Of a stretch of DNA of 64,000 nt, positions 18,030-63,769 are shown piece by piece (within the stretch, counting starts at the first letter, position 1; each line of letters starts with the position of its first letter). The DNA lies in the NCBI GenBank assembly GCA_946803715.1, contig CAMPET010000062.1:115644-179643 (forward strand). Direction: 5' to 3'. Source of the stretch: Beroe ovata. Its lineage: Eukaryota; Ctenophora; Nuda; Beroida; Beroidae. Under the pieces are notes generated by a model. It saw only the letters and a list, made by a program, of their open reading frames with translations. It made no database searches and was not told the origin of the DNA. The translations under genes were made by a program, and so were the position numbers.

Positions 18030-18644
18030 ATTGTTAATTGATTTGTTGTTAATTGATAAAGATCTTGTACTTTTGTAATCAGTATTGAGACTTTGGAAAA
18101 AATGTGCAAAGAGTTTAAGTCTAGGTTAACTTCATGAATCAGTAGTTGCTACTTGTAGGATAACTCCTATCCTTGCTTGCCCGATTTCATTGTAGCTGCA
18201 ATTTTAGATGGTATAATGTAGCACAGCAGGGGGAGAAGCCCCACAAGGTTGCTTCATATAATGCTCAACAAAATTTTGATGCAAAGCTATTTAATTCAGT
18301 TCGTATCCAATATTGGCTAAAGCACTCTCACTTAATGGTTTTATCATTGACCATAACATTGATGATTGAAATTAGTGACGCAAAGTCAAGGGTGAATCAA
18401 GCCAATTGTATACCTGGATGATAAAATGACAAGTTGAAAAAGATGCTCACTGCATGTATTCATTGTAGTTGCCTGCTTTTATTTGTCCCTTATCAATCCT
18501 TTTTTTGTTCCAAGTGTGGACATATCAGGATCCCAACAAAGTGGGGGCCTCGCTTCTTTAATTGATTGGAAAAAGTAATGTTGAAATATTAAAATTCATA
18601 GGTTGATATTCAATTCTAGTGAAGATGTGACCTGAATAGATAAG

Positions 18645-21600: not shown

Positions 21601-24600
21601 TCAGGTTATCATGATGCTCGCTTGAGAAAAATTGAGGACATAACCTATCTTGACTGTTTCTAGAATTGATTGTTTCTAGAATTGATTCTAGAATTGTGAA
21701 TTTTCAGTTTTCTATTTTGTAGCTGATTGCCATTAATATAATCTTGACTGTTTCACAATCAAGTCAACTTTTAGGACAACTTTCACGAAACAAGAACGGT
21801 ACTCGTATGTGGACCAAGACTACGCGTATACAGAAGAGGAGAAAGTTGGGAGAGAAGTCCATAGAGACAAGTACAAGCAGTACATCGACTCTCTGCGGAC
21901 TAATAGATTGGAGAAGATCAAACACCGGTACTTAAATGTGATTCTGTGTCTGTCAAATTGTTATCAGATTGTTGTCAGTCTGTTGTCAAGTGTTGACATT
22001 GTTGTACAAGTTTGGTAACAGTGCGACAGCACGGATAAAATACCCAGCGAGCTCCTCACATTTGACAATGAGAAAGACATGGGGATGAAGCCAGCCTGTG
22101 GACTGCTACCGCCCAAGATTGTGGACTCCCAAGTCAAGCAACATACTAACGTCACTACTCCGCCAGGTTTGACCTTGTACCCGATTAGTTTGAGGTAGAA
22201 AACGTACATAACTTTCATAATTGATGACATTACAAGCAATCCGTTGATTTTCAGAAGGTCTTACGGAAAAAGTCTTGACATCCATAGAATTGTCAAGTAG
22301 ACAAGCGAGTATCCAAAATACAACGTGTACCACCAACAACCAGCCCACGACAACTCAAGAAAAGAAAGAGTGCAACATGAGACTCACCCCTCAGCAAATG
22401 CACCAGGTTTGGAATTGAGAAGTTTCAAATCTTAATATCTTAAACAATCCTGAATTGCCACTCGTACGGTTGGGTGGTCACAAATTTATGTTTGGTTTAC
22501 GGTGCGCGCGGAAAGGAATATGTAAATAGCTGCGCGCGTCACCATGAATACGAGAAATTAAATCAAATCTCTGAATTCATGGTCGCGTTTTACGCTTGGG
22601 CAAAATTTCAAAAAAAGCGTACACATCATGCATGTGAGAAATGTAAGTGTGACGCAACTTCTCACTAATTTCAGATCGTCATTGGTCCATCTACCATTGA
22701 TTTCGGGGAGGTAGCAATTCGCACTGTGAACACGAAGCCGTTAGTGATTGTCAACCATCTTGACATTCACATCTTCATTCAAATCGACATTGACTGTCGT
22801 GAATTACGACAGTCCCTGCCCCTGACCCAAGTTATCCCTCCACGAACTTTGTCGAAAGTTGATGTCGTTTTCGAGTCTCAGAAATCGGGAATATTCCAAA
22901 GGTAGGAAGGGAATAATTAGGTCCAAACTTTACAGTCCATCTGCCGGTCATTTTCTTAACTAAGATAACATTTTGAGATTTTGAAAGATTGCATTATTGT
23001 AGCCCATATTCTATAACACCAGGAGTGTCGTATACACCGTGAACAACCATATCAAACAACACATCAATGTCCATGCGAAGATTGTAACACCAGAGATATC
23101 GTTATCAGCTACAGACATTGTACTGAAACCAACATTGGGTGTACCCCAAACATACGGTATGTCTGCTGTTGAGCTACTTTACACGTTAATTTACGGGCAC
23201 TCGGCACGTGTCTGTAATAACGTGTCTATACCATGGCACTGTCAGTCGACTATTACACTGTGGTTTGATACCCACATCTATTCCACTATTACAACAGCTA
23301 TATCAATAAGAACTCTCTCCCATACAAAGCGCCCTGTTTCCACTGTCTAAATCTCCACGCTCTAGACTCTACAGGTTACAGTGAGGTTGTGAAACTCACG
23401 AACAAGACTAACGGACCCGCTGAGTTCGCGTGGCGTCCCGACAAGATCAGCCCGTTTGCTGTCCGTCCGTCACAGGGTACTGTCGAGCCGCACAGTACGC
23501 TGAACTGTGAGGTCCTGTACTTCCCCTCTGTTACATCTCCACTGGATGCTGTGTTCACACTTGATGTTGTGGAGGGGAACACAGCAAAGCTCAACTGCAT
23601 CGCTGAATTCGCCACGTGAGTCCCCGTGTGTGTGCAGTGTGCAAGTGGCACGTGCAAATTGTGTGCTCCATGTTCAAAACTCTCCATTTCATAGGTGCCC
23701 TACTCCCCTCTCTCATACACTCTCACTTCAGCCCCTCTGTCTCGTTTGTTGAGCGGCGTTTAGGGGTCGGTGTACTGCCGTTACACGTCGTCCACAAAGC
23801 CACGGCAGCCCTGAAAAACACCGGATGCCACCACGCTTTCTTCCAGGTATACCCACGTGTCAAGATCACGTGTTAGTTGCTACGTGATAATAGGTTTTTA
23901 CTCATCAAGTTACTCAATTAGATATTTCTCCATGCCGCAATGATCATATGTGAAATATATAACGTGACGCAGGTCTTGAACCCGCAACCTACCCCGTTCT
24001 GTACGGTGAAGCCCGACTCTGGCTGTATTCCTGTCGGGGGCATGGTCAACTTAGAGCTGTCATTCTTTGTTGTGGACATTGAGAAGTTTGATTTCAAGAT
24101 CGATGTCAAGGTGAGAATTTAAAGAATAATGCATTTTAATGAGTGGTAAGTAGTCATGAAAATCAGACAAGAATCACGCTACGAATACCGCTTCATCTCC
24201 CGAATACAGATCAGAGGAGGGAAGAGACAAACACTCCGGGTTGGTGGGTCAGTGGAACCACCCATGGTCGAGTGTGACCTCGACACCTTCTCCTTCAACG
24301 GGGTCCACGTCGGGTCGACACTCTCCCAGACATTCCACCTGGTAAACCCCATGTCATCTGAGGCGGAGATTGTGTACAACCTTAACAAGTACCGTGACTT
24401 CCGTCTCGAGATTCCGCACAGAAACTTCGCAGGTATGTCACATTTTCTTCCCTTTTTCCGAAATTGTACCACCTCATTGGAAAGTGTAAATATCGTCATT
24501 AAAATCTTAATTTATGTGCATTTGGCGTTCCTCTCCAACTCCAATAAACTCTCAGATGACGATAAGAAGAATTATGTGGAGGATAATTTCTACCACATCT

Positions 24601-27600
24601 ACCTGAGCCCTGGGGAGAAGGTCAAAATAGACCTGATCTTCGAGCCTAAACAGGTTTCAAATCCCGGTGAACTGTGCATAAATTCGCATCTTTTACTTTT
24701 AGAAAAACTCAGGTACGGAGTTACACGTGGGTTGCAGTCATTTAAATCAATCTCAGGTTGCAAGCTATGATTTCAATCTGCCAGTTCTGATAAACGACAT
24801 GATAGCTCCCCCACCTCCAACCAGGAAACTGGGATCCGCCATGTCTCAACACCGGACTAGCATGACTGAGGTATATGATAGTGATCAGTGATCACTGCTG
24901 TCTCGTCAGAGGGAATTATGGGGGCCATCGAAATTATTATAGGAGCAGATGATAACTTCCAACTTGGTGGAAGTTATCATCTGCTAACTTCCACCAAGGA
25001 CAAGATGATAAGGACAAAACCAACGAGTTGGCATCTCAATTCGTCGTACCTCAGTTCGTCACCCCCTATTCACCCTCCTCCTCTCATCCCCCAGGCGGCC
25101 TGTCTACTCAACACACCCTGTCGAAGAGTCACTGCCACAGCAATGTATCCCGTGCTGTCAGTGGATAACCTGGATATTGCATTCACCACTTCCCCCTTTA
25201 GTGCTACAGGAGACTCAGATTCTGCCAATATCAAGGTTTGGAAAATATCCAGATTCGAGATTCAGTCTTTTCTGTGCATCAGCGGTTTTACCATTGATTC
25301 ACTGATATAGAAACATGCTTTATCACATTTTCACGTCTCAGGGTGTCAATATCAAGAATGAAGGACAGGAAGCTGTATCCTTCTCCCTTGATATCCGAGA
25401 ATACAGCCATACTTTTGAACAGAAAATCTTCAGGTGGATTCTGCACTTTTGCTTGACATATTTCTTCTCTCGCTCTACCTCTAAACCGCTTTGTTTTTCG
25501 TGGACCTGTTATTGAATCTAAATCTAATGATTTATCTTAGATTTGTTGATGAGAAGGGAAATGAAAGTGAAACACCAACGAAAGATGTTGGTCAAGTGAC
25601 ATGGAAAACTTTGAAACCTGACGAAACAACCTTCATTGGCTTACAATTCTGTCCAAGTATGCCATTATTTACTTTAGATGATAAGATAATAGAATCGTCT
25701 ATCAGAAGGATCGTTGATCAGATCAGGTTTTGCTTTTGGTCTTTTACTCATACAAATCCATTTCTCTCTTTAGAGGGTGACTGCAGCTACACAATGGAAC
25801 TTCCACTTATATTGGAGGGTGTCACGCGTTACCCATACCGCGTGATATCTGTCACTGGGACCATGGAGCCACCCACACTTCTCTTCTCCTCCCAGTCACT
25901 CATGCTGCTACCCACTCCGCTTTCTGCTAACATTTCAACCTCTCTTGATATCACTGCAACCAACTACAGCTGGTGGGTCACCATCTGTACTAAATGCTTA
26001 GTAAAACTTACATACTTTTATCGTCATAAACATGATTTATGGATAGATCAGCAATACTGAAGTTAACAAATCCACACCAACATGTCTAGAGAATTGACAT
26101 GAAAAATTCTTCCCACCCTCAGCCCGGTAGTCATTGACATCTCAATAGACGAGATCAGATCGGATGAGGGTGAGATTATCACACCCATATCCGTGAGTCC
26201 AGACAAGATTCAGCTCCCTGCCTGCTCCGCAGACAATCCCTCACAGGATGTTTCCATGGAGATCAACTATTGTGCGGACAAGAGCACCAGCTTCGTGACC
26301 AACATCCACTTCAAGGATCCATTCGGGAAAATGTTTGAGTTTTGCTTATACAACTTTCATCTTTTAATTCCCAAAGATATCCCAAGATGACACTATCCTT
26401 GTTCTATTCTGTTTTCCAACTTCAGATCACTAGATCAGCTGATCATCTCATATTTTGCAGATTCTCGGTGTCTGTGACAGGGACCTCAGACAACTGTCTC
26501 CTCACCAACTACCCGTTCGTCAACTCCAACCCACGATTCCATCTGGTATCTGGTGAAACCGAGTACACACAACAGGTAATCAGCTTACACAGAATGTCCC
26601 CCAAACTTTTGCACCACACTGTAATTCTAGGTGGCATTGTGAACCCCTCTATTAGCTTTATCCTAGAAAATCTAAACCTCCCCACCTTCTCCAATCCCCA
26701 CCCCTGAAATATTTCTCCTTTCATCTCCACGCTGACTCCCAGTACACGCCACCAACTGCCACACCCTCGACGGCGTCCCTCCTCTCTGCCGTACCTGGAC
26801 AGCACTGTGAATCTGCGCCACCTCTATACACTCCCGCTTCTACACTCAGTCTTAGAGACGGCGCAAAGAACGCATTCAGGGCGTATGTCACGCCACTGAA
26901 GACTCAGGCGGTGGCTGAGGTTAGACTTAGAGTCCAATTCATAACATCGCACTCTACTGCTACGTTCATATTGCTCATCTGTCATTAAATCACGAACTTT
27001 ATATCAGCACGCTTATCACACACTGTAAATCACACACTGTAAATCACACATGTACAACACACTCTAAATCACTCCCATTCCCAGAAGGAGGAGGAGGAAG
27101 AGGATGAAATGAAGGAGGAAGAGGGATTCCTGCTCCAAGTTCTGAACAGTGCTGAGCGATGGATATCACAGATGGGTTGGAGCAACCTGCCAAACCCTGT
27201 TGCTATCCCGCACACCATCTCCCAAACCGTGTTGCTCAAAAAGGGAACGGTTAGTACGTGTTTTCAGCTGTTGTCCATTAGAACAACAATCGTGACACCT
27301 GCTCCAAAAAGTGACACCAGCTACAAGTGGCATATTACCCTAAATCACCCTATATTCAGGTGACAAATGACGGAGGGAAGCGGAAGAGTGTGTTTGAGTT
27401 GATACATAACCTCTGTGGTAGAGCTATACCTGGCATCCCCCTCAATCCACCAATCCCCAGCAACTCCCAGGAGAGAGTCAAGCTCCTCCACTGGCAACTC
27501 AACACAATGCTGACCTTCCTCAGGTTGGAAATCCTCGTCATATGCAGCGTGTACTCAAGATCAATCCTACACCCGAGTTTTTCTTTCCGTCCTGCAGTTT

Positions 27601-30600
27601 CGTCTGAGCCTACTCCTAGTCAAGTCTAAACAAACGGTGTGCCCTATGAACTGTGATATCCAAGTATGACGATATGTACTGATTATCCCACTTTTCCAGG
27701 GTGCAAGGTGCTAAGCTGACACACGTGAAGGCTGAGTGGTTCTTCAGTCCGTCTGACTTCCTTTTGTGGTCTCATCTCTCTAACTATGAGAATGGGTGCC
27801 CTGTGGAAAGTGAGACAGATCTACTGGTCAAACATGACAAGTACTCCAGTCAGGTACATATTGTGTGTTGTGGTATGAAATCGCAGTGAGAGGGAGAGGA
27901 ATGGGATATTGGGGTGTTTGAGTACGAGTTTGATACTAGGAATCGATAATGATCCAAGGTACGCTTCAGGCTTGGGTTGATCTGGTACTGCAGTTAGCGA
28001 AAGTATTTGTCCTGGTTAAGGTGAAGCCGTCAAAGTCTCTGCAAGTGAACTCCAACGCATATAAATCGTGAGTTAAATCTCTCCATCAATAATCAATAAC
28101 TCTCCGTTTTTCATTATAACTCAGAAGAAAGGAATTAAGTCTCTCACATTGTCCCCCTACTCAGGCTGGCGAGATCTGTGTACAGCACAGAGGAGCGAAC
28201 TCTCCTGTCCTGGTTGTCTCACCACTACGAGACACAGAGGAAAGTGATATGGGCTGAGAACCCACCCCCAACACGCTGGATAGTGTCCTTTGACAACGAT
28301 TTGTTGGATGGATTGGTGCTTGCCACCCTCCTCTCAGCTTACTGCCCATTCCTGGTTAGTGAACTATTGCTAATTGTTACTGTTAGCATCTCAGGTCACC
28401 ATGAGATTATGATATTCATCACATAATCATTATTGTCAGTGACGGCTGACCATATCATTATCATTCATTTTGTTCTGCCGTGCAACGTATACAGGACATG
28501 TTTGAATCGGTATCCGATTATTCACTCCTCTCTCCATTATCCTCCGTCAGGTGAATCTCCACTTCTCGGACATGTACCTGAATGTCCGGAGTCCCGAGGA
28601 GTGTTTCCATAACGCCCTCTCCGTGATCCACTCACTCCGGACACTGGGTATAGACTACGATATCCATCCCACTGATATCATGCAGCCTAATGCCATCAAT
28701 ATGCTCCTGTTCATGACACATCTCTACATCACTCTGCCCCAATACAAGTTAGTGTCAGTTCAAGTCAGTATCAGTGCCAATTAGTGCCAAATTCAATGAT
28801 TGGAAAGTCCGAACTGTCCCCCATTTTCGAAACTCATTGGCAAAGAATGTCACTTACTACTTATGTCATTGGTACCATACAACATCAGACAACTGTCAGC
28901 ATTAATGTTTGCCCCATTTCAGACCCAAAACCACAGTAATGTTTGAGGGAGCTCTCCACCAGCCCATCATGAAGGAGTTGAAGATACAGAACCCGTCCAA
29001 CAAACCGATATCTTACAACATCTCCATTGTGGGAGAGGACAAGGAGTCATTCTCAGTGCAGCCCAGTTCACTTTCCGTGAGTCATTGCTGTATTTTGGAA
29101 TCTGCATTGCAAAATCTTTCATTTTACGAAGAAACTGTCTGATGGGCTCTCTCTCATTTCATTCCATGTATCCCCTTAGTTCTGGCAGTTTTCCAATCTC
29201 TGCTCCCCTCACACTAGGTCGGAGCTAACTCTCACGGTGTGGTCAAGGTCCGCTTTGCCAGTAACTGGTTACACCCATGTGAGGGAGCACTGGTGATGGT
29301 GTCACGACGAACAGGACTCGCCTGTGGTAACACCCTGGTGTTCACTCTAGCGTCCATCGTCAACGATATACTTCCAGTGGTATGTCGACCTGATCAATTC
29401 ACTGTTCAAGGCAGGACCATTTTCGCTGAACATGGTCCTACCTATCTATTGCAAATGAAATCTATCATGCAAATACCATGCACTTATACTTTCGTATGTT
29501 TTGCAATGACATGTTACCACTGACAACATGTTTACACTGGTATGTTAACATATTCCTGTAATATGTGCTCAGAGTACACATCATGTTGAGAGTCCTGTGT
29601 ACAAGACACAACGATTTCCACTGAGCATCAACAATCCCCTTGTTGGAGGGGGAACTTTCAAGGTAGGTATCGGTTCTTTGAATAGAGAAATGAATTCTTC
29701 AGAATGCCTCTAAACTGATATTGATTTGAACTTACTTTATTCAATACCTAGTACCTACTTACCGGATATTTTTGAAAATAACGGTGAATCCCCCAGATTG
29801 TTTTGGTTGAGAGTAAAGGACTGAGAGAGGGACTCAAGAAGAAGGCACAAAGTTCAGGCTCAGCCTCTCATACCACTATCGGAACATTTGACCCTAGCAC
29901 AGGTTTGTTTCAATAAAACATCTCACCCCACTGAGACTTTTCACTTTATTTCCGTACTATACCCCTTATCATCACATCATCTAGCCAACCTATAATTATT
30001 CCTTGATTGCATACTGCTCAACGATAATGAATCCCTCTCAATTTCAGCTATTGTTCCCTCCAACTCCCCCTCTTCGTTCTGGTGTACTGACACCACTGTG
30101 GAACTGGCTCCCGGGGGAACTGCTACCCTGGAACTAGAGTTCCTGCCCCTCTCACCCGGGACTAGGAACTGTGCTCTGCTCTTCTCTTGTCCTGGGGTCG
30201 GGGAGTTCATCCAGGTACAGTATAATTTCCTGAGGTGGAGTTGTCACGAAGTCATGTGGTGTGTAGGGAGGTGTAGTGTGGAGGGAAGAGGGTGTCAAGT
30301 GGTGTGAATTGTGAAATTGAGGTGTCAATGACACATCGATTTCACAATTCATGGTACTTCTGGTTCTGATGTGGAATCTCTCGACAAAATGCTTCCCTTT
30401 TTGTGGTTAACCTGAACATTTCATCAGAATATAGAAGGGACTGGACTCTATCCAGAACCAATGTGTATCACCAAGAAGAAGAATATTCGTCTCAACTCCC
30501 CAGTTGATAAACTCAGACAAGATATGCTAGGATCAGGTATAGTTGCCGGGACTGCCACATTGCGACTCTATAGTCTAAGTTATCTCTGTCAACTCCCTAT

Positions 30601-33600
30601 CTATCTCACAATTCACCGATTCTTTACTCCTCAATCCATACCACTATATACTCTCTCCTCAATTCCTCACTTCTCAATTCCTCACTTCTCAATTCCTCAC
30701 TTCTCAATCCCTCACCTCCCTCACTATCCAGGAAGTGACGTTGTCACCCGTTATCGATGTGACCCTGACAAGGAACTACAGGAAGTGATACACGTCCCAG
30801 TGGAAAACCCTCAAAAAGTGGCTGCTCTCATCGAAACAGCGCAGCACAGAATGAGTGATATTGAGGTGAATGGATGCAGAGTTCAACTTAGCTTTGATCC
30901 AGAAAAATCCTGAAAAATAGTAGTACTGAGGACGTTCAAGGATTTTCGCGAGTTTTTTTTTTTGCAGAAATCTAACTTCCTTTCTACAGATCCGCAGACG
31001 GAAATTGACTGGAACACTAGCTAGTGCAAGTCTGGCATGTCTGGAGATGGGTGGTAAAGACACCAACATGCCTGACGAGTCTACATTCTTCAGAGTGTAC
31101 TCAAATAGCAAGCACTTCGAGTTCCCAGAGTCCATACCCATTGATCCTGCGGCTGGAGCTAAACTTCCATTCACGTTCAAGGTGACACCCCACCCCCTTA
31201 TTACAAATTAACCCTCCTCTAGTAGCACCAGTCTCACACCTATGTCTTATTTAATCACTTAACTAGTGTCCTCACCACTTACCCCTCACCCCAAGGCTGA
31301 CGGACAAGGGTTCTATCCCACCAAAGTGGTCCTGGTGAACAACAGTGACATCAGAGTGTTTGAGTTGGAGATAACGTGCACACCCAGCACCACACAAGCC
31401 GAGATACTGTTCAGCTCACCTGCCATGCAGAGCGTCGTACAGGATATACCAATCGTGAGTGTTAACCTGCAGATGTGACAATCTATAAATAGCGCAGTTG
31501 GAAACAACGAAGTTCGATCTCCTATATATAATGGTCATGTTGCTATAGTCTTGATGCTCTGACACTCGCAGTGTGGGTGTGAGAGCACCGTGGCATACAC
31601 AGACAATCGTCCATCCTCTGTATGATAACTTTCCTCAGATAAACGAGACCCAATACGACTGGAATCTGTCGGCTGTCATAGAGGGAGAGGCATACTTTGG
31701 ACCGCCGACAATGGTGGCCAAATCTGCCACCACCACACTCTATCCTCTCATGTTCAAGCCGCTTTACCAGGGCGAGATTGAGGTAGGTGGAATTAAAGGA
31801 TAAGACGTTGACATTTTGTCTGAGAGTCATGGCAGTGCTTCAATGAAGCTTATCTTGATCTTACGCCCCATCACAATACAGGGCGAGTTGACACTGACGA
31901 ATGTTGCGAATGGTACAGTACACAAGTTTAGACTGACTGGTACCGGACTGAAGCCTCTTCCACAAGAAACTGTGACACTACGTTGTCATGCCAGGCAGAA
32001 ATCGTCTCACACTGTCTACGTTCATAACCCATCCGAGCGGAGAAAAACCTTCCAGGTTCGTGCAGGACCAAATCAGCTTTCCTCACAAAAACAGTGGTCA
32101 TTTTTATAACATAGCATGTTAAAATATCTCCACTTTTGATCGGAGACTTCAGTAAAAATCTGGTGTATGATCCCATATTTACTCCGCAGGCATTCACAGA
32201 CATGGACTGCATTGTGGGACTACACGAGATAACTATAGAGGGAGGCATCTCTGCCCCGTACGAGATCACAGCCTACCCTATCAAGCAGGGCCACTACTCG
32301 GGTGTGTTCAGTTTTGAGTCAATGAGGAGTCCCGGGTCGCCCAGTGGTCGGGAGAGTGTGAGCAGCAACACCACTGAGTCACACAGTGTCTGGTATGCGA
32401 TAGAGGTCATTGTCGATCCGCCTCCACCGGAGAAAACTGTCGATCTGTTCTGTGAAGCGAAGAAAGCACTAACGTTAGAGGTGAGAATTGGTCACGTGAC
32501 TACAGAGTGATATGTCATTTTGTCACTGCACTTGCCTCTGTGACTGTATTACCATGGAAACTACCATACTCTTTCTTACAGCTGTCGATCTCCAATCCTA
32601 CCGATAACGGAGTGGTGTTCTACGTTACTCTTGAGGGAGAGGGGATATCAGGGGCACCCACTGTGTCCGTGGGTCCGAGAACAGAGGCAAGCTACGAGAT
32701 CCTGTACAAGCCACACTTTATTAGGAAGAGTACTGGGAAAGTTGTGTTTGTCAGCAAGGAATTGGGTGAGTGTGTGAATCAGAAATAAAGATTCCTTTGT
32801 CAGTCAGTATAGTAATACTCACTAACTACTAGAGCAGGCAACAAAATGTTCTCTTACGGTTGTGCTCCTTCATAATATTCATTATTGCTTATCGTTCAGG
32901 AGAGTTCTGGTACGATTTGAAGCTGAACGCTGAAAAGCCACGGCCTGTAGCACTACCTCACATGATTGCTGAGCTGGGTAAAACAGCGAGGACCAAGATA
33001 CCTATCCAAAACGACACACCGGACACCTCCTTGGTGAACATCACCCTGTCCAACTCTTCCCACTTCGTGTTACACAGCCAGAAGAAGGTGGCAGTCCCTG
33101 GCAAGAGTCAGATAGAGGTGGAGGTTACCTTCATCCCATCTGCTCTCTCATTCGGAGACAACCAGTCCTGTCTCATTGAGTTCTCTAGTCCACAGGTGAG
33201 GAGATAATAGACATGTGGGATGAGCAATGAGCATTTGTTCTGGCACTTAGTTAGATGCAGTAGTCTGGTCTGCCTTCATATTACCCCGCTGACCAGTTAC
33301 AACTTATACCCTCTCTCTACAGCTTGGTGAGTGGTCATACACGATACAAGGCCAGGGCTCCCGCCCTACTGTGATGGAACCTCTCAACATATCATGTAGT
33401 CTGGGAGAGGTCACCCAGACACTCCTACCCTTCAAGAACCCCCTCAACCAGCCTATCAATGTGCACTGCAAACTCATTGACAAAACCAAAGTAGAGAGCA
33501 AAGGTGATTCTTTTTTAATCTACTAGAAATTTAAATAGCCCATAGTAAGCGGTTTTCAAACAATGAAACATACTATCCTTTAAGTGAAACCCAAGTGGCG

Positions 33601-35164
33601 TACCTAATTGGCATTCCCATTAACCACAATACCCTATCTCTCAATCACCCCATCCACACAGAGGAACTATTCGTGTTGTTGGTGGAGGAAGACACCCCGA
33701 TAACTGTGTCCGAACGAGGGGTGCTGGAGCTACCTTTCACCTTCAAACCTGTGAACATGGTCCATGCTGCTGCTCACATTGTAGTCGAGGTAGTCGAGGA
33801 GGATAGCCCTGTGGACGGTGTCAAGTGGCAGTTCCCTGTCAAAGGTGGGTGTCATGATCTACCACATTGACGGGGAGATAATTGTGTACAAGGTTGAGAT
33901 TGGGGATGATGATTGGCAGGGAGTGGATTGTATATGATATCGCGGCTGTTTCAGGTACACCAGTGTTCAATGTTAGCAAGACTTACCAGCCGCCAGTGAT
34001 AAGCTGCAAAGCTAAGGAGCGCAAGGAATGCTTCATGGAGATTCTGCTGGACACCAACTCGGTACAACCATGCCCCAAAACACGGTACACCGAGGCAGCA
34101 ATCAGGGACACGCCCAGCGAGCTGAGAGAGGGATGGACAAAGACATCGTCCAGTAAAGAGTTCACTTTTTCAATAGATGAGGACAGTCTCCTGACAATTC
34201 AACATTGTTCAACTTCGTCAATTCTGCCACCTGGTCTGGAGCTGCTTACTTATACACTGGTTTTCGCACCAGGCAAACCTACCAAGTTAGTCTTAGTTCA
34301 TTGATATTGATCATCCATTCAGAAAGCATTCTTACGAGCAACAAGGTGCCAGAACAGTTCTGACAACTTCATGATATGAGCTCAGACCTCAGTCAATCAA
34401 GAATTCCAGCAAACAAAATGTATTGAGGAGCCCATGAAACATATAGCCGTCCTCAGGAAAACAGTGAATCTGACAGTACAGAGTTCCGATGGAGGAAAGT
34501 GGGTGTTCCCATTTACCATCCACTCGCTTCCTGCTGACCCTGATGACACCATTGTCATCAGGGCATCGGGTCTCCACAAGGACTCAGTCGTAGGAATGAG
34601 ACTCAACAGTCTGACTAAGTGAGTATTTCATGCTATCACTCCAAATGACCATCGTTTATCTAATTCCAAATCCAAACGCTCTTATTCCTCCACTTTACTC
34701 TTCCTCAAATATGACTCCACCTTGCACTCTTGCAGTGCCGGTGTGCCATACGAGGCGTATCTGGAGAAGGGATCAGATCCTGATTTCCGAGTGTATCCTA
34801 GTGCCGGCAACCTACTTCCTATCGGAACCGAGGGTACACTCATCTGTGTAGCGTACAAACCAACGCTTTACGGCAAGGTTCACAACGCTAAGCTCATCAT
34901 TCAGGTATAGTCTACTTTTTCAATTTATTGGTTTGGTATCATGATTCTTGAAGTGATTGTGAACAATGAAACTAATTCATATCCTCCTCATTCTAGACAC
35001 CAGACAATCAGTGGACATATGTTGTCCAAGGACAAAGTCCAGCGTTCAGTGTCCCAGTGGGCGTCACCACCACGCCCCAGAGAGCCCCACAACCTAGTCC
35101 CGTAGTGAAGAAGAACTTTATCAGACAAAACATGCGAGTACTGGCTGCCCAGAAAACCCCATAG
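18645..35164 (+). CDS. CFAP47: CFAP47-like cilia/flagella protein, complete gene, 55 exons
   Basis: The exons splice in frame throughout to 9009 nt (3002 residues); human CFAP47 is of similar size. The protein is a chain of beta-sandwich ASH/MSP-like repeats (as in HYDIN) with one calponin-homology domain at residues about 1660-1789, and ends in NFIRQNMRVL-type sequence as I recall for CFAP47. The family is an axonemal protein needed for sperm flagella. Start: first ATG of the open exon. Exons: 18645-18791, 18906-19060, 19189-19396, 19502-19696, 19804-19950, 20119-20309, 20458-20659, 20808-20929, 21029-21143, 21328-21461, 21775-21927, 22030-22166, 22255-22406, 22675-22901, 23023-23156, 23375-23615, 23732-23846, 23973-24110, 24210-24432, 24556-24653, 24757-24870, 25095-25235, 25342-25433, 25541-25656, 25774-25972, 26123-26332, 26461-26575, 26743-26919, 27085-27249, 27360-27523, 27700-27853, 27970-28067, 28165-28354, 28551-28747, 28923-29076, 29218-29379, 29573-29662, 29797-29902, 30048-30214, 30428-30536, 30732-30865, 30990-31181, 31296-31454, 31639-31782, 31882-32055, 32190-32480, 32582-32765, 32900-33195, 33323-33503, 33662-33844, 33955-34285, 34323-34345, 34393-34618, 34736-34904, 34997-35164. 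The weakest call is the 23-nt exon 52. Confidence 0.9.
24944..24985. repeat. Perfect 18-bp hairpin in a CFAP47 intron
   Basis: AGCAGATGATAACTTCCA and its exact reverse complement are separated by ACTTGG. It lies in the intron between exons 21 and 22. A third partial copy (TAACTTCCACCAAGG) follows directly. Confidence 0.85.
28165..28747 (+). other. CFAP47: Exons encoding the CFAP47 calponin-homology domain
   Basis: Two exons (28165-28354 and 28551-28747) encode one CH domain. Recognisable pieces are ERTLLSWLSHHYE at the first helix, FDNDLLDGLVLATLLSAYCP in the centre, and DIMQPNAINMLLFMTHLYITLP in the last helices. In CFAP47 this domain is embedded mid-protein between ASH-like repeats, and its position here (residues about 1660-1789) is similar. 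Confidence 0.85.
34323..34345 (+). other. CFAP47: Candidate 23-nt microexon of CFAP47
   Basis: Exon 51 ends with two bases of a codon (donor after 34285), while the exon starting at 34393 needs one. Direct joining breaks the frame. The 23-nt segment 34323-34345 has a CATTCAG acceptor and an AAG|GTGCC donor, encodes KKHSYEQQ with its flanking bases, and restores the frame so that the whole CDS is divisible by three. The flanking introns would be only 37 and 47 nt, shorter than any other in the gene. A 1-bp sequence error is the alternative. Confidence 0.45.
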
Positions 35165-36488: not shown

Positions 36489-36667
36489 TCAGGTTGATAC
36501 ACTTACAGTATGGAACTTTGTTATGTGAATTGCCAAGTTCGCTTTTCTTGTAAAGGAACGTTCACAGAAGGGACATCTGTAAGCAACTTTAGAGTGGACT
36601 GATTTGATGTGTCTACGTAGGGCCGAGGAAGCGGAAAATTTCCGGTAACATGTATGGCAAACACGGT
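36489..36667 (-). CDS. Cassette A: two C2H2 fingers, terminal exon
   Basis: Acceptor TTTCAG before 36667, then two bases completing a codon, then two fingers of the form C-x2-C-x12-H-x4-H (CHTC...SALRRH and CPFC...NLAIH), and an in-frame stop at 36489-36491 shortly after. An alternative donor (ACT|GTAAGTG at 36506) sits just before the stop, so this exon could also splice on. It is the last of ten DNA-binding cassettes of the locus and would be the farthest from the shared 5' exons. Confidence 0.7.
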
Positions 36668-37218
36668 CTGAAAGTGATTATGATATTATGATTAATTTTC
36701 GGAGGCATCTTGATCTATAATCGGTATCCAGATCCCTTGTTCTATGAGTATGTTTTATTGCTGCTGCACTGAGCACGTTGTGAACGTCTATCGATACAAA
36801 AGAGTTCATCAGAATCTAAAACTCTACAAGAAGCTAATGAAATACATTTCAAACACTCGACTTCAAAAAGTAATTCTAACGCTCTTTTTCTCATTCTCGA
36901 GACATTTGGTTCAGTCCACACTTCAGTCAGTGAATGTGATAGTCCATCATTGAATGGAATTCCATTGCTGTAAATTTTCCCCGCGAGATCTCGTCGTGTC
37001 CCTCATCACGGCATCGAGTATGCCCAGTATGGAGTCATTGGTCATGATCCTCATCCAGTCCCACATTCACTTTTAGTTAACTTTCCTCTATGCTCTAGAA
37101 CCTGAGGGTGGGCTTACATTCATTTTCAGTTGATTAAACAGGGAAATTGGACAATCGACATGAAAACCGTAAACTAGAACTGAATTTGAATTAACATTGA
37201 GAACAGTGTACCTGAATC

Positions 37219-37469
37219 TTATTCCATGGCCCCGGCTATGCTACACTGTGACACATGACAGTCCCCACGAACATCGCTGTGTTTCCCACACGTCATAGTG
37301 TGGACTTCTACGTACTCCTTCCTAGAGAAATCCCGTCCGCACACTGTGCACGGATACCTCCGTAGTTTGTAGTGGCACTCCAGGATGTGCCGCTTGAGGT
37401 TATATTTACCTTTCGCTGGGACACAAGACCGGGACATAAAGTCGCAATGTGGACAGGAAAATTCTCCTC
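37219..37469 (-). CDS. Cassette B: two C2H2 fingers, terminal exon
   Basis: Acceptor ATACAG before 37469; phase identical to the other cassettes (two bases complete a codon). The first finger is unusual, with a longer spacer (CPHCDF MSRSCVPAKGKYNLKRH ...H); the second is CTVC GRDFSRKEYVEVH with a Cys in place of a final His (H-x3-C). The frame ends in SIAGAME and a stop at 37219. Nuclear DNA binding is the expected role. Confidence 0.75.
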
Positions 37470-37639
37470 CTGTATATTTGGAAATTGGAAATAGAAGACG
37501 GTTACGGTGAAATACTATAGAATGTACTAGTACTACATGATGACAGTCAGCACCATGATGGTGTCAACATAACTTTCACATTATGTAGATTTAGAAGTCA
37601 TGTTATTGTTAAGACTATAACACTCAGTGAGAGGGATGC

Positions 37640-38090
37640 ACTGGGTGGTGCCAGATGGTCCCCGAGAACCAGACTTTGACACAACACTACTCGTTACAAT
37701 GACACCACTCTATACACTGACATTGTCAGTGCATAGAGTGGTGTCAGTGAATCGAGCGGTGTCAGTGTTGACATAGCCACTGTATACACTTACACCGCTA
37801 TTTACACCGACACCTATCTATTCACTGGCACCGCTCTATACACACACCCCTCTACACAATTACACTGACACCACTCTATACACTGACACCGCTCTATACA
37901 CCAATACCACTCTATACACTGACACTACATTATACACTGACACCACTCTATACAGTATACACAGACACCGCTCTACACAATTACAATGACACCACTCTAT
38001 ACACCGACACCGCTGACCGTATTATACAGTGACACCGCTCTATACACTGACACCACTCCACTGGAGTGGTGTCAGTTTCAAGTTCATACT
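37640..38090. repeat. ~20-bp degenerate minisatellite, consensus CACTCTATACACTGACACCG
   Basis: Many diverged copies of CACTCTATACACTGACACC(G/A) run across this stretch, first partly inverted (37720-37780, AGTGTATAGAGTGGTGTCAG-like) then direct. It lies between cassettes B and C and has no coding signal. Confidence 0.8.
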
Positions 38091-38492
38091 CTGGTACCAC
38101 TACCATCCTCGGACCTCAGATAAACGCGGTAATTCAGTCCCTTGAAAACCCTAACAGCAAGGAATGAGAAGAAATTAGAGAATTTGATAAACATAAAATA
38201 AACAGCGTATATAACTGGGAATGGAACTTTGAGTGATCCATTTCAATATCAAAATTCGCTTTCAAAATTCGCTTTCAAGATAAACTTTAAATTCACTTCG
38301 GAAGATACTCAATCCACGAATTCGTGAGCGTTTATTTAGTCCCAAAGTCAGTCCATATACTATGTCCTATGATAGTGGGATAGAAACTCTTCATGGCATT
38401 TAGATGAAGTTTAGTTCAATCCTCAATCCTAGAGTCGAGCGCCACCGAGCTTGCGTTTAACGATGGAAAACCTCGCACGAGTTTGATCATCA

Positions 38493-38704
38493 CTAGGGGA
38501 GTCTGTGATGCGAGTGTGCGAAGCACTTTCGGTAATGACGCTTCCGCTGATTCGAGTAAAGGAATCCTGCCTTGCAGTTCTCACAGAAGTACTTGTTGAT
38601 CTTGAGGTGAACCGCCTCGTAGTGTATCCGGTAGTGGTGGGTCCGACACGAGCCCCAGAACTGCCGCCCACACGCGCTACATGTCACGGGGTTGGGTGGG
38701 TAAT
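38493..38704 (-). CDS. Cassette C: two C2H2 fingers, terminal exon
   Basis: Acceptor TTTCAG before 38704, same splice phase as the others. Encodes CSAC GRQFWGSCRTHH... and CENC KAGFLYSNQRKRH..., the first finger with extra residues before its final His. Stop at 38493. A minus-strand AATAAA lies at 38331-38336, about 155 bases beyond the stop, which fits a terminal exon. Confidence 0.75.
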
Positions 38705-39014
38705 CTGAAAATGGACCCATTTCATTGGACGACAGGATGATACAACTGTGATAATATAACTGTGATATAAGGGGGGCTATGTGATAGAATTAGACGACGG
38801 GAGGTGATGAACAATCGACTGTCCGATTTTCTGTATTCGAATCGTCCCAAAATTATGATTTGATGCGGCAAGAGGGGTTTGCGGTATTTGCTTTTGCCTT
38901 TATCATAAACAGAATACAACTTTACTGAAAAGTGTCAACTATGATCTAAGATAAAGAAGTGTCATACTAACATAAGGGTGTCAATCTAAGATAAAGAAGT
39001 GTCAATTACAGTTT

Positions 39015-39310
39015 CTAGTCCGCTGTGTGAAATCTCGCCACATGGTCCTCGAGGTTTTCTTTCCTAACGAGATGTTTTCCGCAGTGGACACACTGGTAGC
39101 GTTTATTCTTGAAATGGACTTCCTCAACGTGCCGGATAGTATTGGTCACCAAAGATAGGGCCTTACCACACACGCCACACCTCATGTCAGGGGTGACGTG
39201 GTGAGAGAGAATGTGACGGCGGAGACACCGTCTACTTGTGATGGCTGGGATTGAAGAGGGGCAGTAGGGACAAGTGATGGCGCGATGCCTGGAGCCGCCA
39301 ACTACAACAG
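39015..39310 (-). CDS. Cassette D: three C2H2 fingers, terminal exon
   Basis: Acceptor ATTTCAG before 39310, same phase. It encodes three fingers: CPYC...CLRRHILSHH, CGVC...TIRHVEEVH and CVHC...NLEDHVARFH; the latter two have the C-x2-C-x12-H-x4-H spacing. Stop at 39015 three residues after the last His. It is the only cassette seen with three complete fingers. Confidence 0.78.
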
Positions 39311-39611
39311 CTGAAATATAACATGACACACATCAATACACTGTTATCAGAGCAAACCAGTAGGTATTATAGAGACTACAATAGAATCCGTTCAAATACT
39401 AGAATAAGTTTCAGATAGTTAAAACGAGTGTCAGATAATAGTCAAAAACAATGTCAAAATCACTTTACTGCTAATGAATGTCCCCATTAAACGAAGTTAC
39501 TTTAAAATATCCCCAAGGTATGATATAAAATATCCCCGAGGTATGATACAAAATATCCCCAGGGTATGATAATGTTTCCAAGATATCCCTAAAATAGCAT
39601 GAAAATCAAGT

Positions 39612-39988
39612 TTAGATCAGTCTACCCGCTCTTCTCAGGTTTCGTATGATTTCAGCATACTTCGGGTCCTGTAAAGCAGCCTTACAGCTCTCTGATAGAT
39701 TATTCCGGTCCTTTTGATTCTTCTCCAGAACTTTGAACCGTTCTTCATCAACGATCTTCATCTCAGCTACACATTTCAAACTGTAGAACGTGGATCGCGA
39801 CACCCCTATACCACGCAACACTTTGAGCAGACTGAAGTGCCGGCCACCGCACAGTTTCTTTGCCAGCAGTACCTTCTTGTAATCCTTGTGAATTGACTTG
39901 GTCTTCTTGTACGATAGGTATACCAGGTGAACACTCTCAAAATGCAGTTCTAGTTCAAGTGCAGCCTGGGTGGAGTCGACAGGTCCAA
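39612..39988 (-). CDS. Cassette E: helix-turn-helix-like domain, terminal exon
   Basis: Acceptor ATTACACAG before 39988, same phase. No zinc finger. The core LLKVLRGIGVSRSTFYSL, AEMKIVDEERF, then a Ser/Leu/Cys segment (LSESCKAAL) and C-terminal LRRAGRLI before the stop at 39612 match cassette J along their length. GVSRSTFY looks like the turn and recognition helix of a helix-turn-helix. I know no named family for the whole domain. Confidence 0.7.
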
Positions 39989-40457
39989 CTGTGTAATTGC
40001 ATTTATTTGAAACATGCTCCACCTTAATTAGTGTAATTGAAGTCGTTGAAAAGAGTGGTGTGGTGAGTTATAAAGAATGATTTCTTTACCGAGCACTTTT
40101 GATTCAGATTGAAAAGTGATACGCTGTGATGAACGTGTCCTTAAAAAGATAAGACAAACAGTAACACCGTAATACATAAAAATAAAATGACCTCTCAAAC
40201 AAAGAAGCAGATTGCTTGAACGCTAGGAGCGATGTCCAAAGCTAGCCCATTAATTTCTTTAAAAATTGGATTGTTGGGTATTAAAACAGAATAATGATAA
40301 TGCATCATGTCCAACTGTAAATAATAATGTCAAAGTATAAAACAATTAATTGAAAGAAAAAGGTCTCCCCACTATTGAGTACTCAGTCCACCTCACTTCA
40401 TGTCACGTGCGGCAACATGTGTTTGAGTCACGTGTGTGCGTGTTGGAGTCACATGAA

Positions 40458-40627
40458 TTACCCATGTACCATCCTCACGTGTTTCGCTCTGATATCACTC
40501 CGGGAGAATGTTTTGGAACACGATGGACAAACAAATCGCCGCTCTCGAAGATGCACCGTTCGGATATGACGTTTCAGGTCGCCCAGACGTTTGATAAATC
40601 GCTGACAGACAGGACAGTGTCTACCTT
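40458..40627 (-). CDS. Cassette F: two C2H2 fingers, terminal exon
   Basis: No ATG-initiated frame covers this exon. Acceptor ATTTCAG before 40627, same phase, then GRHCPVCQRF..., fingers CPVC...DLKRHIRTVH and CPSC...IRAKHVRMVH (both C-x2-C-x12-H-x4-H), Gly and a stop at 40458-40460. The tight ending, one residue after the last His, is like that of cassette D. Confidence 0.75.
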
Positions 40628-40854
40628 CTGAAATTGTTGACAGAATTCAAGCTATGGTGCTGTAGTCAGGATGTCAAATTCCACTTAAGATGGCTGAATT
40701 TTGACGTAAAATTTCATGATATCATACAATTCCGGAAAAAAACTTTCACCCAACAAAATACTTATACTGGTTTTAAAAAGCAAAAAATATTAGAGAAATA
40801 CAACATACATAAAAATCTTGTCAAACCGCACTATACATGGTCATTGGTCAACAA

Positions 40855-41045
40855 TCAATGTCCGGTATCCAGCAAGTCTCTATGGACAGTTTTCTGGTGT
40901 CTCATGAGATTTGAACGTCGACTGAACTTCCTAAGGCACGTATCACACCCGTAAACTGTATCCCGGTCGTGGATTTCCGCTACATGATTCCGGAGACCGT
41001 AGATACTCACGAATAGCTTCTCACATATTTCACATTTGAATTTCT
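40855..41045 (-). CDS. Cassette G: two C2H2 fingers, terminal exon
   Basis: Acceptor CCCTCAG before 41045, same phase. Fingers CEIC...GLRNHVAEIH and CDTC...NLMRHQKTVH with C-x2-C-x12-H-x4-H spacing, then RDLLDTGH and a stop at 40855. Confidence 0.78.
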
Positions 41046-41202
41046 CTGAGGGATATAAAGTCTGTTCACGATGTGAAAATGAAGTCTCTTTCAACTACGG
41101 ATAAATGCCAGATAGTTATAACAGATTAATCGCTAACGAAAAAGATTTTAAGTAAAACCATATCGCTACGCCGTCTAATCATCACGGAAGTTGAGAGTCA
41201 AA

Positions 41203-41477
41203 TTATCCGCTTCTGGAACGACTTTTGAACAACTTCCTTTTCTCTGCCATATTAGCTTCGTATCTCCTATTTGAGAAATACTTCCGCAATCGTTTCATAT
41301 CACACATCATCTCGGTGGCGAGGTGTTGCAGCTGCTCCTCTGTCGGCTTTCCGCCCGACAACTCCCACATTTTGTTGAGCTGCGCCATCTGGACACTGGA
41401 GAATGTCCTCCTTGTTCTCCCAGCAAGCATGTTCCCTCCCCACATTGCGGTGTGCAGAAGTCCAAGTCGGCCAGACA
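41203..41477 (-). CDS. Cassette H: homeodomain-like, terminal exon
   Basis: Acceptor ACCTCAG before 41477, same phase. The encoded peptide contains RTRRTFSSVQMAQLNKMW, then a middle helix (EEQLQHLATEM) and a third helix ending RLRKYFSNRRYE. This matches a divergent homeodomain: Phe and the Asn-Arg-Arg of the recognition helix are kept (usual WF.NRR is YFSNRR here). A Lys/Arg/Ser-rich tail ends at the stop at 41203. It sits among zinc-finger cassettes and shares their splice phase, so it is best read as another alternative DNA-binding end of the same gene. Confidence 0.75.
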
Positions 41478-41742
41478 CTGAGGTATGGTGCTTTTCATAT
41501 TGGGTGCCGATAAGTGGGAACTTGACTCAGTGGTTATGTTGTGAGGTTGGTGATGAACATAACATGAACTATTATCGGTGAATTGACTGTATGGGACTAT
41601 GTTTGTACAATACAAATGGAAACAACGACTTCGAAGCAATAATAAGAAAGTTATACACGACAAATAAGGAGAGAACATCATATTAAATTAAGTTTCTAAA
41701 ACTATATCTATGGTCTAAGATGTTTATTGCGAAGAAAGTGAA

Positions 41743-41987
41743 TCACGGTTTTCGAAATTTCATCAAAATCTTATCTTTATTATTAGCGAACAGAACGTCT
41801 TTGGAGTGGTAATACATGTGTTTCTCAAGGAGTGTGTGGTTAGCAAAAGTTGCCCGACAAAATTGACAGTGGTGTTCTGAACTGGCTTCAGGGTGAAGAG
41901 CCTTCATGTGCCGCTTAAGGTTGTTCCCTGTGTTCCGATTCCCTTTAAAAACACGGTGACAAATGTGGCACTGCAAATCTTGGGATT
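41743..41987 (-). CDS. Cassette I: two C2H2 fingers, terminal exon
   Basis: Acceptor TCCCCAG before 41987, same phase. Fingers CHIC...NNLKRHMKALH (spacer lengthened by a NRNTGN insert) and CQFC...LLEKHMYYH, then a basic tail and a stop at 41743. A minus-strand AATAAA at 41723-41728 follows the stop by about 15 bases. Confidence 0.75.
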
Positions 41988-42199
41988 CTGGGGAATAAGT
42001 TCGGTACAAAGGGAGGATAAGTGAGGGAGCCTGGTGATTGTTCCGGAATGCTTTTGAGAGATGATTTGGAAAATGCGCACTTCGCTGTGCTGAATCAAGG
42101 TATGAATCTATTCCATCATGCAAAATCAAAACAATGGTCGCGCGTCAAATGCGCGCGGAGTTGGTGCTTGACAATTTTGCTTACTAAAATAAGAACAGC

Positions 42200-42773
42200 G
42201 GAAATTGCTAGTTCCTTTAGTTAATGCTGCAAATATGTCCCACTCCATAACACATTTTAGGTCGCACTAGGATGATACAAACTCGTTCCACTAAGCTTGT
42301 CAGGCATACATTCAGGGGGGATGGGGGATGCTGTTAACGGGTAAACGAGTGAAACTACCAAAATTTCAAAGTATATCGAAAATTTATTTCAAAACAATGA
42401 GGTGCAAAATTACAGCCATCGTTACAAATACTAAACTAAAACGCGTTATGAAAATGTCCTCAAAACTATAATTCTTAATTGCCGGAAAAAAATAAACCAC
42501 GAACCGCCAGAGGATATGGAACCTACAGCATTTTCATGTGGCTCCTATGACGTGATGTTCTAAAATTTCTTCAGAATGAGCACGGGTGTGTGAATAGTTG
42601 GAGAATGTGGGAGAAGAAAAGGGAGATGCTTTCAGAGGCTGAGTAAATTATTCTGAGTCTCCAAACGACATGCTTTCAATTTGAGGAGTACAGTATACGA
42701 GAAGCGAAACGAAATGAAGCTTGTTTTAACTGTACCATAGTGGCTAGAACAACAATTTGGGAGCGTATCCAGG
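42200..42773. other. Non-coding gap between cassettes I and J
   Basis: No exon with DNA-binding motifs or splice signals is visible on either strand. The sequence is AT-rich and single copy as far as I can tell. Confidence 0.5.
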
Positions 42774-43111
42774 TTATTTGATCAAATCACCGAATCGTCT
42801 CATATCATAAGCAATCCTGGCGTTCTCTGATTCCCCCAGCGCCTTCCTACATCGCAAAAGCAAGGTACCCGGGTCAGGATGGGTAAGTTCCAGTCTGGTA
42901 TACTCAGCACTGTTCACTATTTTCATTTCAGCGATAGCTCTCCACTTGTAGAAGGTCGATTTTGGGAAACCAAACGCTTTCATGACATGCTTGATGGGTA
43001 CACCTGCTTTCTGCTGAGATATGACCATTCTGTAGACGGAGTGAATGGCATGTGCTGCCTGATTGTGCTTCCCCCGTCTGTACAAATGAGCAGAGAACCC
43101 CTGGACGCTCA
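42774..43111 (-). CDS. Cassette J: helix-turn-helix-like domain, terminal exon
   Basis: Acceptor CTATTTAG before 43111, same phase. The core AGVPIKHVMKAFGFPKSTFY, KWRAIAEMKIVNSAEYTRLE, a RCRKALGESENA segment and the terminal MRRFGDLIK align with cassette E, so the two are paralogous exons. The stop is at 42774. This is the cassette closest to the shared 5' exons. Confidence 0.72.
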
Positions 43112-43735
43112 CTAAATAGAGAGGACAATTCTATAGTGAATTTATCAAATGCTAGCCATCGAGTGCAGCTATGAGTGGTAAGAGTGCAGCTTTGAGTGAC
43201 GTAAGCGGGAACGTTGGTGGCTTCTTGAATACTGAACCCCATCGATATAAAAATTTGTCGTTTGGAGACGGGCGAAGAATCAATGAGTACATTCGGCTAT
43301 AGGATACAGTGCAATCTGACTCCAACTCATCGGTAAAGAATATCATCTAAACAGCATTCAAGCGTCAAGTATATTGGAGTTCAGTCTTCAGATCGCACTG
43401 ATCTATGTCAATGAAAAGGAATATAAAAATTATAGTGTTGATCTAATGGCAGTGGCGAACAGGGCAATATGTTGATTGTTGATATGTTTCCTAACACATA
43501 TACTACAGAAGTGCACAGCGCGGTAATCCTTACATCCCTATCGCCACTTTTCATTAGACCCCCACTTTTCAGCTTGAAACTCGGGCATTTTAGTCCACAT
43601 ATGGCAGATACTGGATAGCGGAGTTAAAAAAGGGAATCATAATTGGGTGAAACCATAATGAAGGGTAATATGGCGCCGATTCAATAACAGATAGAGAAAT
43701 GTCCGAGTTTCAAGCCACAGAGAAAGTTGACTTAC

Positions 43736-45008
43736 TTGTGCTCGATGGTCCTTTACTGTTGCTGTTGACATCGGTTCCAGATTCGGTTTGACTTTTTCTG
43801 CGATGATTGGATTGTGAGTTTGCTTCCTCTTTTCACAGCTGTAACGATGCAAATTGCAAGCACACGAAAATAAGGGTAACTCACGTGTTCGATTCCAAGT
43901 TGATACCCGAGGGCCCAGGCCCGTTACCGGAAGTGATACTTCCCACCATCGTGAGTGGGTTGCTCGATCCCCTCTCAAGGAAAGAGGGCGGTAAACTGGA
44001 GAGTGACGCGGTGGGCACGAAGTTCTGTAGTCCCGTATTGTTTGATATGGTCGATACCAAACTTTCAAATTCCCCCTGGGTCACCAACTCAGGGGCTGCT
44101 TTGGTTTCCTCCTTTATCTCGACCACCTCTTCATTCTTCACATTCCTGGCACTGGCGACGGGTTGCGTGGCAGGGGGCAGGATTGTGGATTGGGTTGCAG
44201 ATGGTTGAGCACTAGACGGTAGCTGGATGGCGGGTGTGTTTGGAAGAATGCAAGAGTTGGCTAAGTTTGTCTCGTGAGTAGTTCGAACTGGCTGTTGTAC
44301 AGGCACTGGTGGTATATTTGATGTCGGGGGTTTCTGTATTGGAATGGGTGGTAGTATTTCGGCCACAGTAAGGGATGTATCGAGTTTAGATGAGTCTGTT
44401 ATCGGCGTGCTGTTGGCATGTGGAACAGGCAGTGACGGAAAGGAGGGGTTGGTGTTTTGTACACTTGATATCTCCTGGTTTATTTGCTGCAATTCTGCTG
44501 ATAGAAGGGAGGTAGGGGCTTCCACTTCCATCAATCCTGTCGAGGTGAGAGTGGAATAAGTCACCAATCAACTGCCGAAATTAATTCGGTACATCTAAGA
44601 CTGTACATCCAGCGTTTGTCTTACCAGACGCATTTTCCTCAATCGATGGTACGTCACTGTACATTTCCTCATTTTCTTCAACATCTGTAGCTTCAGACAC
44701 GGCTTCTATCACAGGAGCGAGGTGCTGCACTGAAATGAGAACTTGATTTAGCTTCCCTTCTTAAACTAAGTTAGCATTTGTTTGCGATGTAAAACCCTTA
44801 CCATTGGATTATGGAATGGCAAGTAAGTGTTCAGTAGATATACAAATATCTCACCTATGGAGATCACTCTGACAGCAGTATCAAGCAAAAACATTAGAAA
44901 TTCATTGTCACTCTTCTGATTGAAATGGAATTCTTGTTTTTGTTTCAGATAGAAGTTGTGAACATCGGTGTTGTAGAAAATGGGGAAGGGACCAGCTGCG
45001 GAAGCCAT
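43736..45008 (-). CDS. Shared 5' exons of the DNA-binding cassette gene
   Basis: Exons 44855-45008 (start ATG at 45006-45008, MASAAGPFPIFYNTDVHNFY...), 44625-44729, 43885-44536 and 43736-43838 join in frame. Exon 1 encodes an N-terminal segment rich in aromatic and Lys/Gln residues; it does not look like BTB. Exon 2 is acidic. Exon 3 (217 codons) is a Pro/Ser/Thr/Gln-rich linker with an acidic EEVVEIKEE patch, typical of a transactivation or spacer region. Exon 4 is basic (CEKRKQTHNP). Exons 1 and 2 end in phase 1, which fits the cassettes directly; exon 4 ends in phase 0, which does not. A cryptic donor inside exon 3 (TCGG|GTATCA, exon end 43907) would also give phase 1. Joining to the cassettes is inference from position, strand and phase. 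Confidence 0.6.
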
Positions 45009-63739: not shown

Positions 63740-63769
63740 GTATGTGTTGACGGGTATGTTTCGAGCGAN

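Follow-up and report, generated by a model that had tools for sequence, protein, structure and literature searches.

In a 64,000-nucleotide (nt) stretch of Beroe ovata DNA (hereafter the window, whose positions serve as coordinates throughout unless a contig is named), we identified a minus-strand gene that is best explained as a ctenophore transcription-factor gene with ten mutually exclusive ends, chosen by alternative terminal-exon splicing. We put the probability of this reading at about 0.86. Four constant exons and ten terminal exons (the latter here called cassettes) follow one another on the same strand inside 8.5 kb. A single splice phase runs through all ten cassettes and recurs in other array genes of the same genome, and isoform models of a relative, Bolinopsis microptera, have a long N-terminal part in common and then diverge into different DNA-binding ends.

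A fourth constant exon sets the phase of ten cassettes

The constant exons are as follows.

Common exon 1: 44855..45008, minus strand, coding from the ATG at 45008; first part of the conserved N-terminal module; donor GTGAGATA.
Common exon 2: 44625..44729, minus strand, second part of the N-terminal module (QHLAPVIEAVS), with a TTTCAG acceptor and a GTAAGA donor; conserved in alignment A2.
Common exon 3: 43885..44536, minus strand, Pro/Ser/Thr-rich linker with acceptor and donor present; homologous exons occur in five other array genes.
Common exon 4: 43736..43797, minus strand, 62 nt, ending one base into a codon (A|GTAAGT).

A first-pass annotation had proposed that an N-terminal part and a Pro/Ser-rich linker lie upstream of the cassettes on the same strand, and exons 1–3 with their splice sites bear this out. 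It had given the common exons as the stretch 43885–45008; exons do lie there, three in number (45008–44855, 44729–44625 and 44536–43885), while a fourth, at 43797–43736, had been overlooked. An AG acceptor-like site stands 2 bases 5' of the exon 1 ATG. The last codon of exon 3 is left with two of its bases; exon 4 brings the frame back into register and finishes after the first base of a codon, and thereby sets the phase of all cassettes. When exon 3 was joined directly to the cassettes, all ten frames shifted and reached a stop 2–61 residues past the junction, whereas the ten products spliced via exon 4 by script (380–449 residues) each had one stop, at the end. Exon 4 is thus needed for any of the ten ends to be read. 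An alternative exon-4 acceptor, before 43838, was rejected as being in the wrong phase.

The cassettes, in the order in which they follow exon 4, are listed below.

Cassette 1: 42774..43111, minus strand, weakly helix-turn-helix (HTH)-like; HTH_23 at 19.4 bits, under the cut-off of 24.6.
Cassette 2: 41743..41987, minus strand, two C2H2-type fingers; zf-BED at 22.0 bits, over the cut-off of 20.6, and zf-C2H2_4 at 26.9 against a cut-off of 27.
Cassette 3: 41203..41477, minus strand, homeodomain; PF00046 at E 4.3e-7 and 30.1 bits, over the curated cut-off of 22.9.
Cassette 4: 40855..41045, minus strand, two C2H2 fingers, Pfam match over cut-off.
Cassette 5: 40458..40627, minus strand, two C2H2 fingers, Pfam match over cut-off.
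Cassette 6: 39612..39988, minus strand, helical domain with 37% identity to cassette 1; CCDC106 at 21.7 bits, under the cut-off of 30.2.
Cassette 7: 39015..39310, minus strand, three C2H2 fingers, Pfam match over cut-off.
Cassette 8: 38493..38704, minus strand, two finger-like motifs, from a cysteine/histidine pattern and 54% likeness to finger cassette 1 of gene 6.
Cassette 9: 37219..37469, minus strand, two C2H2-type fingers; zf-C2H2 at 22.5 bits, under the cut-off of 25.2.
Cassette 10: 36489..36667, minus strand, two C2H2 fingers; zf-C2H2 at 45.6 bits, over the cut-off.

The ten exons had been predicted with these coordinates, and a script reading the coordinates found them exact at both ends in every case. 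The acceptor and two leading bases claimed for each were confirmed by an AG before 10/10 exons and a length of 2 modulo 3 in 10/10, and the claim that each carries its own stop by reading frames open from the third base to the terminal stop, again in all ten. With the first exon setting the phase, ten exons would agree by chance with a probability of 5e-5. The further claim that each encodes one DNA-binding unit stood in part. C2H2 matches exceed the Pfam cut-off in cassettes 4, 5, 7 and 10 (four of the seven with finger motifs) and a homeodomain match does so in cassette 3, but cassettes 2, 8 and 9 fall under the C2H2 cut-off and 1 and 6 are weakly HTH-like. Cassette 8 has no Pfam match at E≤0.01. 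Cassettes 1 and 6 are related to each other (37%) and only weakly HTH-like; for cassette 6 there was no HTH match in Pfam, and its predicted model (predicted local distance difference test score, pLDDT, 72.8) gave 38 Foldseek matches at E≤10 and none at E≤0.001. Homologue searches with cassettes 6 and 3 yielded 105 and 8 candidates respectively, none at E≤10. Between cassettes 8 and 9 there is a diverged 18/43-bp tandem repeat (37684–38058).

The same phase recurs in other array genes

Exon 1 has ten matches in the 77.8-Mb assembly (534 contigs), the window copy and nine further, and the genome holds at least six array genes: the window gene (gene 1), four others on contig C24 and a sixth on C66. 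Counting the open units that have an acceptor in phase gives 10, 6, 18, 23, 3 and 4 for genes 1–6, 64 in total; in genes 2–6 the acceptors were picked among phase-2 sites, so that this list is itself no phase test. Gene 4's share includes a single-finger stub, and gene 6 also has a remnant of an HTH-like cassette broken by an in-frame stop (C66:289653–289838). Beyond the 64, gene 3 has one further unit of unsettled nature; this unit (unit 6) was left out of the phase test, of the counts of ATGs, donors and substitution rates and of cassette likeness, but its tail and its upstream stretch entered the tail and word counts given below. Acceptors of units 1 and 3 of gene 5 were read by eye, and unit 3 is a second homeodomain end (70.2 bits) with an in-phase acceptor. 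The counterparts of exon 4 in genes 2–6, whose edges were chosen by eye and whose frames were checked by script, measure 56–65 nt, and each contributes a single base (A, A, A, C and A) to the codon split at its donor. All six genes accordingly have an exon-4 donor one base into a codon and cassettes that start with two bases.

An independent measure of phase came from an acceptor profile built from the window's ten exons only and applied, with all phases allowed, to 53 finger cassettes of the five other arrays (the gene 5 homeodomain cassette was left out). The best acceptor fell in phase 2 in 43 cassettes, in phase 1 in 4 and in phase 0 in 6 (binomial P 1.2e-12). Likewise, candidate open reading frames (ORFs) at the array loci were spread evenly over phases 0, 1 and 2 when they lacked fingers (25/26/21), but not when they had them (6/9/34; P 6e-5). 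That the cassettes are chance ORFs was considered and rejected.

Likeness between cassettes of different arrays is loose: genes 3 and 4 are linked by seven reciprocal best pairs, and the best match lay within the own gene for 34 of 63 cassettes (gene 5 unit 1 was left out here). Among the 91 fingers of standard spacing, 87 distinct sets of residues occur at the four base-contact positions, which we take to be those named -1, 2, 3 and 6, and 45 of the 91 fingers have arginine at position 6. Entropy at these positions was 3.15, 3.60, 3.39 and 2.78 bits, compared with 3.30, 3.32 and 3.16 at positions -2, 1 and 5 (gene 5 unit 1 and gene 4 unit 1 left out). Since the contact positions resemble their neighbours, the 87 distinct sets point to diversity without an excess at the contacts.

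Two further copies of the N-terminal module lie near DNA-binding domains. At the C72 copy, a homeodomain split over two exons (C72:131676–132651, minus strand) lies 2.4 kb downstream of the module exon on the same strand; their link into one gene is putative. The finger pair seen in the Bolinopsis and Mnemiopsis counterparts of the C34 copy is present there too, and 5–6 kb downstream lie two more finger ORFs with phase-2 acceptors (C34:310394–310747 and 311379–311696), possibly a seventh, small array. Other copies of the module are on C80 and C52.

Isoform models of a Bolinopsis gene switch ends after a common part

Residues 1–110, searched against 5.8 billion proteins, returned 11 hits at E≤10. 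Six carried a named organism, always a ctenophore: five Bolinopsis microptera and one Mnemiopsis leidyi. Isoforms X5, X6, X8 and X15 of Bolinopsis LOC134813369 are common over residues 1–373 and then continue into different C2H2 pairs; the X15 cluster has 27 member sequences. The 19-residue peptide KNISDAGLNVSSIKGQANP, just before the isoform switch, is identical in gene 4 of the window genome. LOC134813369 resembles the window gene in its N-terminal module, linker and alternative finger pairs. It differs in that all four of its retrieved isoforms end in C2H2 fingers; cassettes 6 and 3 of the window gene found no relative at E≤10. Bolinopsis LOC134821797 and Mnemiopsis ACHWQZ_G001731 have the same module and a finger pair, and match the C34 copy with 84–87% over the fingers; unlike the window gene, they show one finger pair per retrieved protein.

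A second line of evidence is P0002, a protein of 472 residues on a contig of 1,496 nt, in which a near-identical N-terminal part is joined to one cassette. The contig is too short for introns. Over 73 residues its cassette shares 70% identity with cassette 14 of gene 4, which sits 9 kb and 13 units past exon 4 in the window genome. The proteins P0001–P0005 carry one cassette each (P0001 was compared with one contig of the genome only), and their first variable residues are M, I, T, S and I. All of these could derive from codons that start with A, the base given by exon 4 in genes 1–4 and 6 (C in gene 5). P0008 joins the module to a SIX domain and a homeodomain; among 17 SIX-like matches in the window genome, none lies at a locus of the N-terminal module.

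The N-terminal module and linker

The conserved module comprises about 60 residues around Y.KQK.EF.F....D..F..FLLD.A..VI, and alignment A2 (13 sequences, without gene 6 and the C52 copy) has 21 invariant columns. Exon 1 is under strong constraint, with a non-synonymous rate (dN) of 0–0.12 and a synonymous rate (dS) of 0.3 to saturated. The module matched nothing over cut-off among Pfam models and PDB sequences. A BTB domain had no Pfam match in the common part (324 residues), and among at least 33 BTB places scored in the genome none lies inside an array, and the closest is some 24 kb beyond gene 3. In homologue P0009 the module is predicted to form two helices (residues 11–23 and 31–62; block pLDDT 58–77), and most of its linker is modelled at low confidence. 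The linkers keep an IEIKEE/VDIKEE-like stretch, which to us resembles a SUMO-acceptor motif. The module may serve in interaction or oligomerisation, and isoforms could mix through it; we infer self-association by analogy with BTB domains, which are reported to multimerise (PMC11426971).

Proposed mechanism and its alternatives

We propose that one pre-mRNA would supply the four constant exons and the ten mutually exclusive terminal exons. The exon 4 donor would be joined to exactly one of ten acceptors, the cassette completing the split codon; this is the best-supported step of the scheme. Each cassette would contribute a domain, mostly DNA-binding, and its own stop, giving one protein per mRNA laid out as common helical module, linker and one end. 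Different ends would then direct the protein to different targets. In Beroe ovata the splicing presumably takes place in cis, which suffices because a script that scanned the opposite strands of all six arrays detected no finger motif with standard spacing.

Several observations weigh against this proposal. For Beroe ovata it rests on genomic sequence rather than transcripts, and the Bolinopsis isoforms are database models, taken here by name and sequence. Another phase scores best in 10 of the 53 held-out cassettes, and some in-phase acceptors are weak, three scoring below 0. Finger contact positions show no excess of variability over their neighbours. The idea that each cassette is polyadenylated separately is not supported, as AATAAA and ATTAAA were no commoner than expected in the 65 tails that follow the stops (7 and 5, against 8.9 and 11.2); downstream cassettes may instead stay in a long 3' untranslated region. 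Nor did we find a selection device: no upstream word in genes 1, 3 and 4 rose above the highest of 100 shuffles, and the longest complements to the donor intron (7–11) were not clearly above those of one shuffle (7–10). Finally, ctenophores are reported to have spliced-leader trans-splicing (PMC8527503), which leaves trans models open.

One such model holds that constant exons 1–4 and the cassettes are made as separate RNAs and joined in trans, as has been described for lola and mod(mdg4). We consider this unlikely. Spliced-leader trans-splicing is described as common in Hormiphora, with the leader on 56% of Iso-Seq reads (PMC8527503), and the leader end with an assumed donor, AATTTGAGGTAAG, has 12 copies in the window genome compared with 4 for a reversed control. 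Five of the copies stand in tandem about 1 kb apart (C127:168125–172038), perhaps a spliced-leader gene cluster. Against this stand the collinearity of constant part and cassettes and the lack of standard finger motifs on the opposite strands; splicing in cis needs no second mechanism.

It is more doubtful still that the array is real but that many of its cassettes are decaying duplicates, with few in use. The broken remnant in gene 6, the unclear unit in gene 3 and the single-finger stub in gene 4 are what decay would leave, and relatives of cassettes 1, 3 and 6 are few or absent. Against this, each of the ten cassettes in the window is open and has an acceptor, and a gene 4 cassette is 70% identical to one in a relative. 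Of ten cassette pairs picked by hand, one had a dS short of saturation, and its dN/dS is about 0.25 (0.12/0.48).

There is very little to recommend the idea that each cassette is a small separate gene, with its own promoter and start or with a start given by a spliced leader. Hormiphora is reported to have many nested intronic genes, as well as clusters that seem to share a 5' exon, which were ascribed to leader mapping (PMC8527503). Some in-frame ATG lies between the start of the ORF and the domain in 20 of 64 cassettes, but the other 44 have none. A phase conserved across six arrays would be pointless if the genes were separate, and what the Bolinopsis isoforms have in common is 373 coding residues, not a short leader. 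A long multi-finger protein assembled from several cassettes can practically be dismissed. In its favour, a donor-like GTRAGT word was seen in 4 of 64 cassettes, after the start of the domain and ahead of the stop. Against it, every cassette of the window is closed by a stop and all ten are entered in one phase, and P0001–P0005 carry a single cassette apiece.

Elsewhere in the window

Other features of the window lie outside the array gene.

8959–11299, minus strand: two adjoining ORFs, a Myb/SANT-like protein (PF13873) and a DDE_Tnp_4 transposase (PF13359), which we take to be the two-gene make-up of a Harbinger/PIF element.
18636–34304, plus strand: many exon-like ORFs, by their resemblance perhaps part of a HYDIN-like ciliary gene; the one tested, 24150–24767, matches Cep192_D4 below cut-off.
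63239–63772, plus strand: part of a class I tRNA synthetase (PF00133).
931–1263 and 2000–2934: long 15-bp repeat arrays with long ORFs on both strands.

Relation to lola and mod(mdg4)

Swapping of DNA-binding ends by choice of a terminal exon is best known from arthropod genes with a TTK-type BTB domain. In Drosophila, lola is reported to have different C-terminal C2H2 fingers in 17 of 20 isoforms, and mod(mdg4) a constant part with at least 30 isoforms, most with FLYWCH ends, formed by trans-splicing; the TTK-type BTB domain of both is given as specific to Arthropoda (PMC11426971). As far as these descriptions go, the window gene is like lola in having, by its sequence, one common 5' part and many alternative DNA-binding ends, and like mod(mdg4) in having a constant part with many predicted isoforms. 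Unlike either, its common part gave no match to the BTB domain that marks both. It further differs from lola in its N-terminal module, in a homeodomain end and in being one of at least six such genes, and from mod(mdg4) in that the latter has mostly FLYWCH ends.

The first-pass annotation had suggested an independent system with the logic of lola and no visible BTB domain. That logic, common 5' exons joined to one of many DNA-binding terminal exons, is found in the genomic sequence and in the isoform models of a relative; the 373 residues common to the Bolinopsis isoforms, a contig of intronless size, the phase over six arrays and the lack of a BTB match in the common part all support the suggestion. 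Independence is likewise supported, because the N-terminal module differs and the named hits are from ctenophores only. The likeness to lola and mod(mdg4) is best read as convergence: judged from its sequence, the window gene is one that works like lola and is not a member of the lola family.

In Mnemiopsis, CTEP1 and CTEP2 are described as ctenophore-specific C2H2 loop-anchor proteins (PMC12221973), and the array genes, compared with them by description only, are alike in being genes for ctenophore C2H2 proteins. A literature search listed no description of the ctenophore array-gene family. Tentatively, and with somewhat more doubt than belief, we suggest that a chassis lacking BTB arose in ctenophores, independently of arthropods, and would swap whole DNA-binding classes (C2H2, homeodomain and HTH-like) by terminal-exon choice; that the roughly 64 ends which at least six genes offer in this small genome may mix via the N-terminal module; and that some of the products may be ctenophore-specific chromatin-loop tethers.

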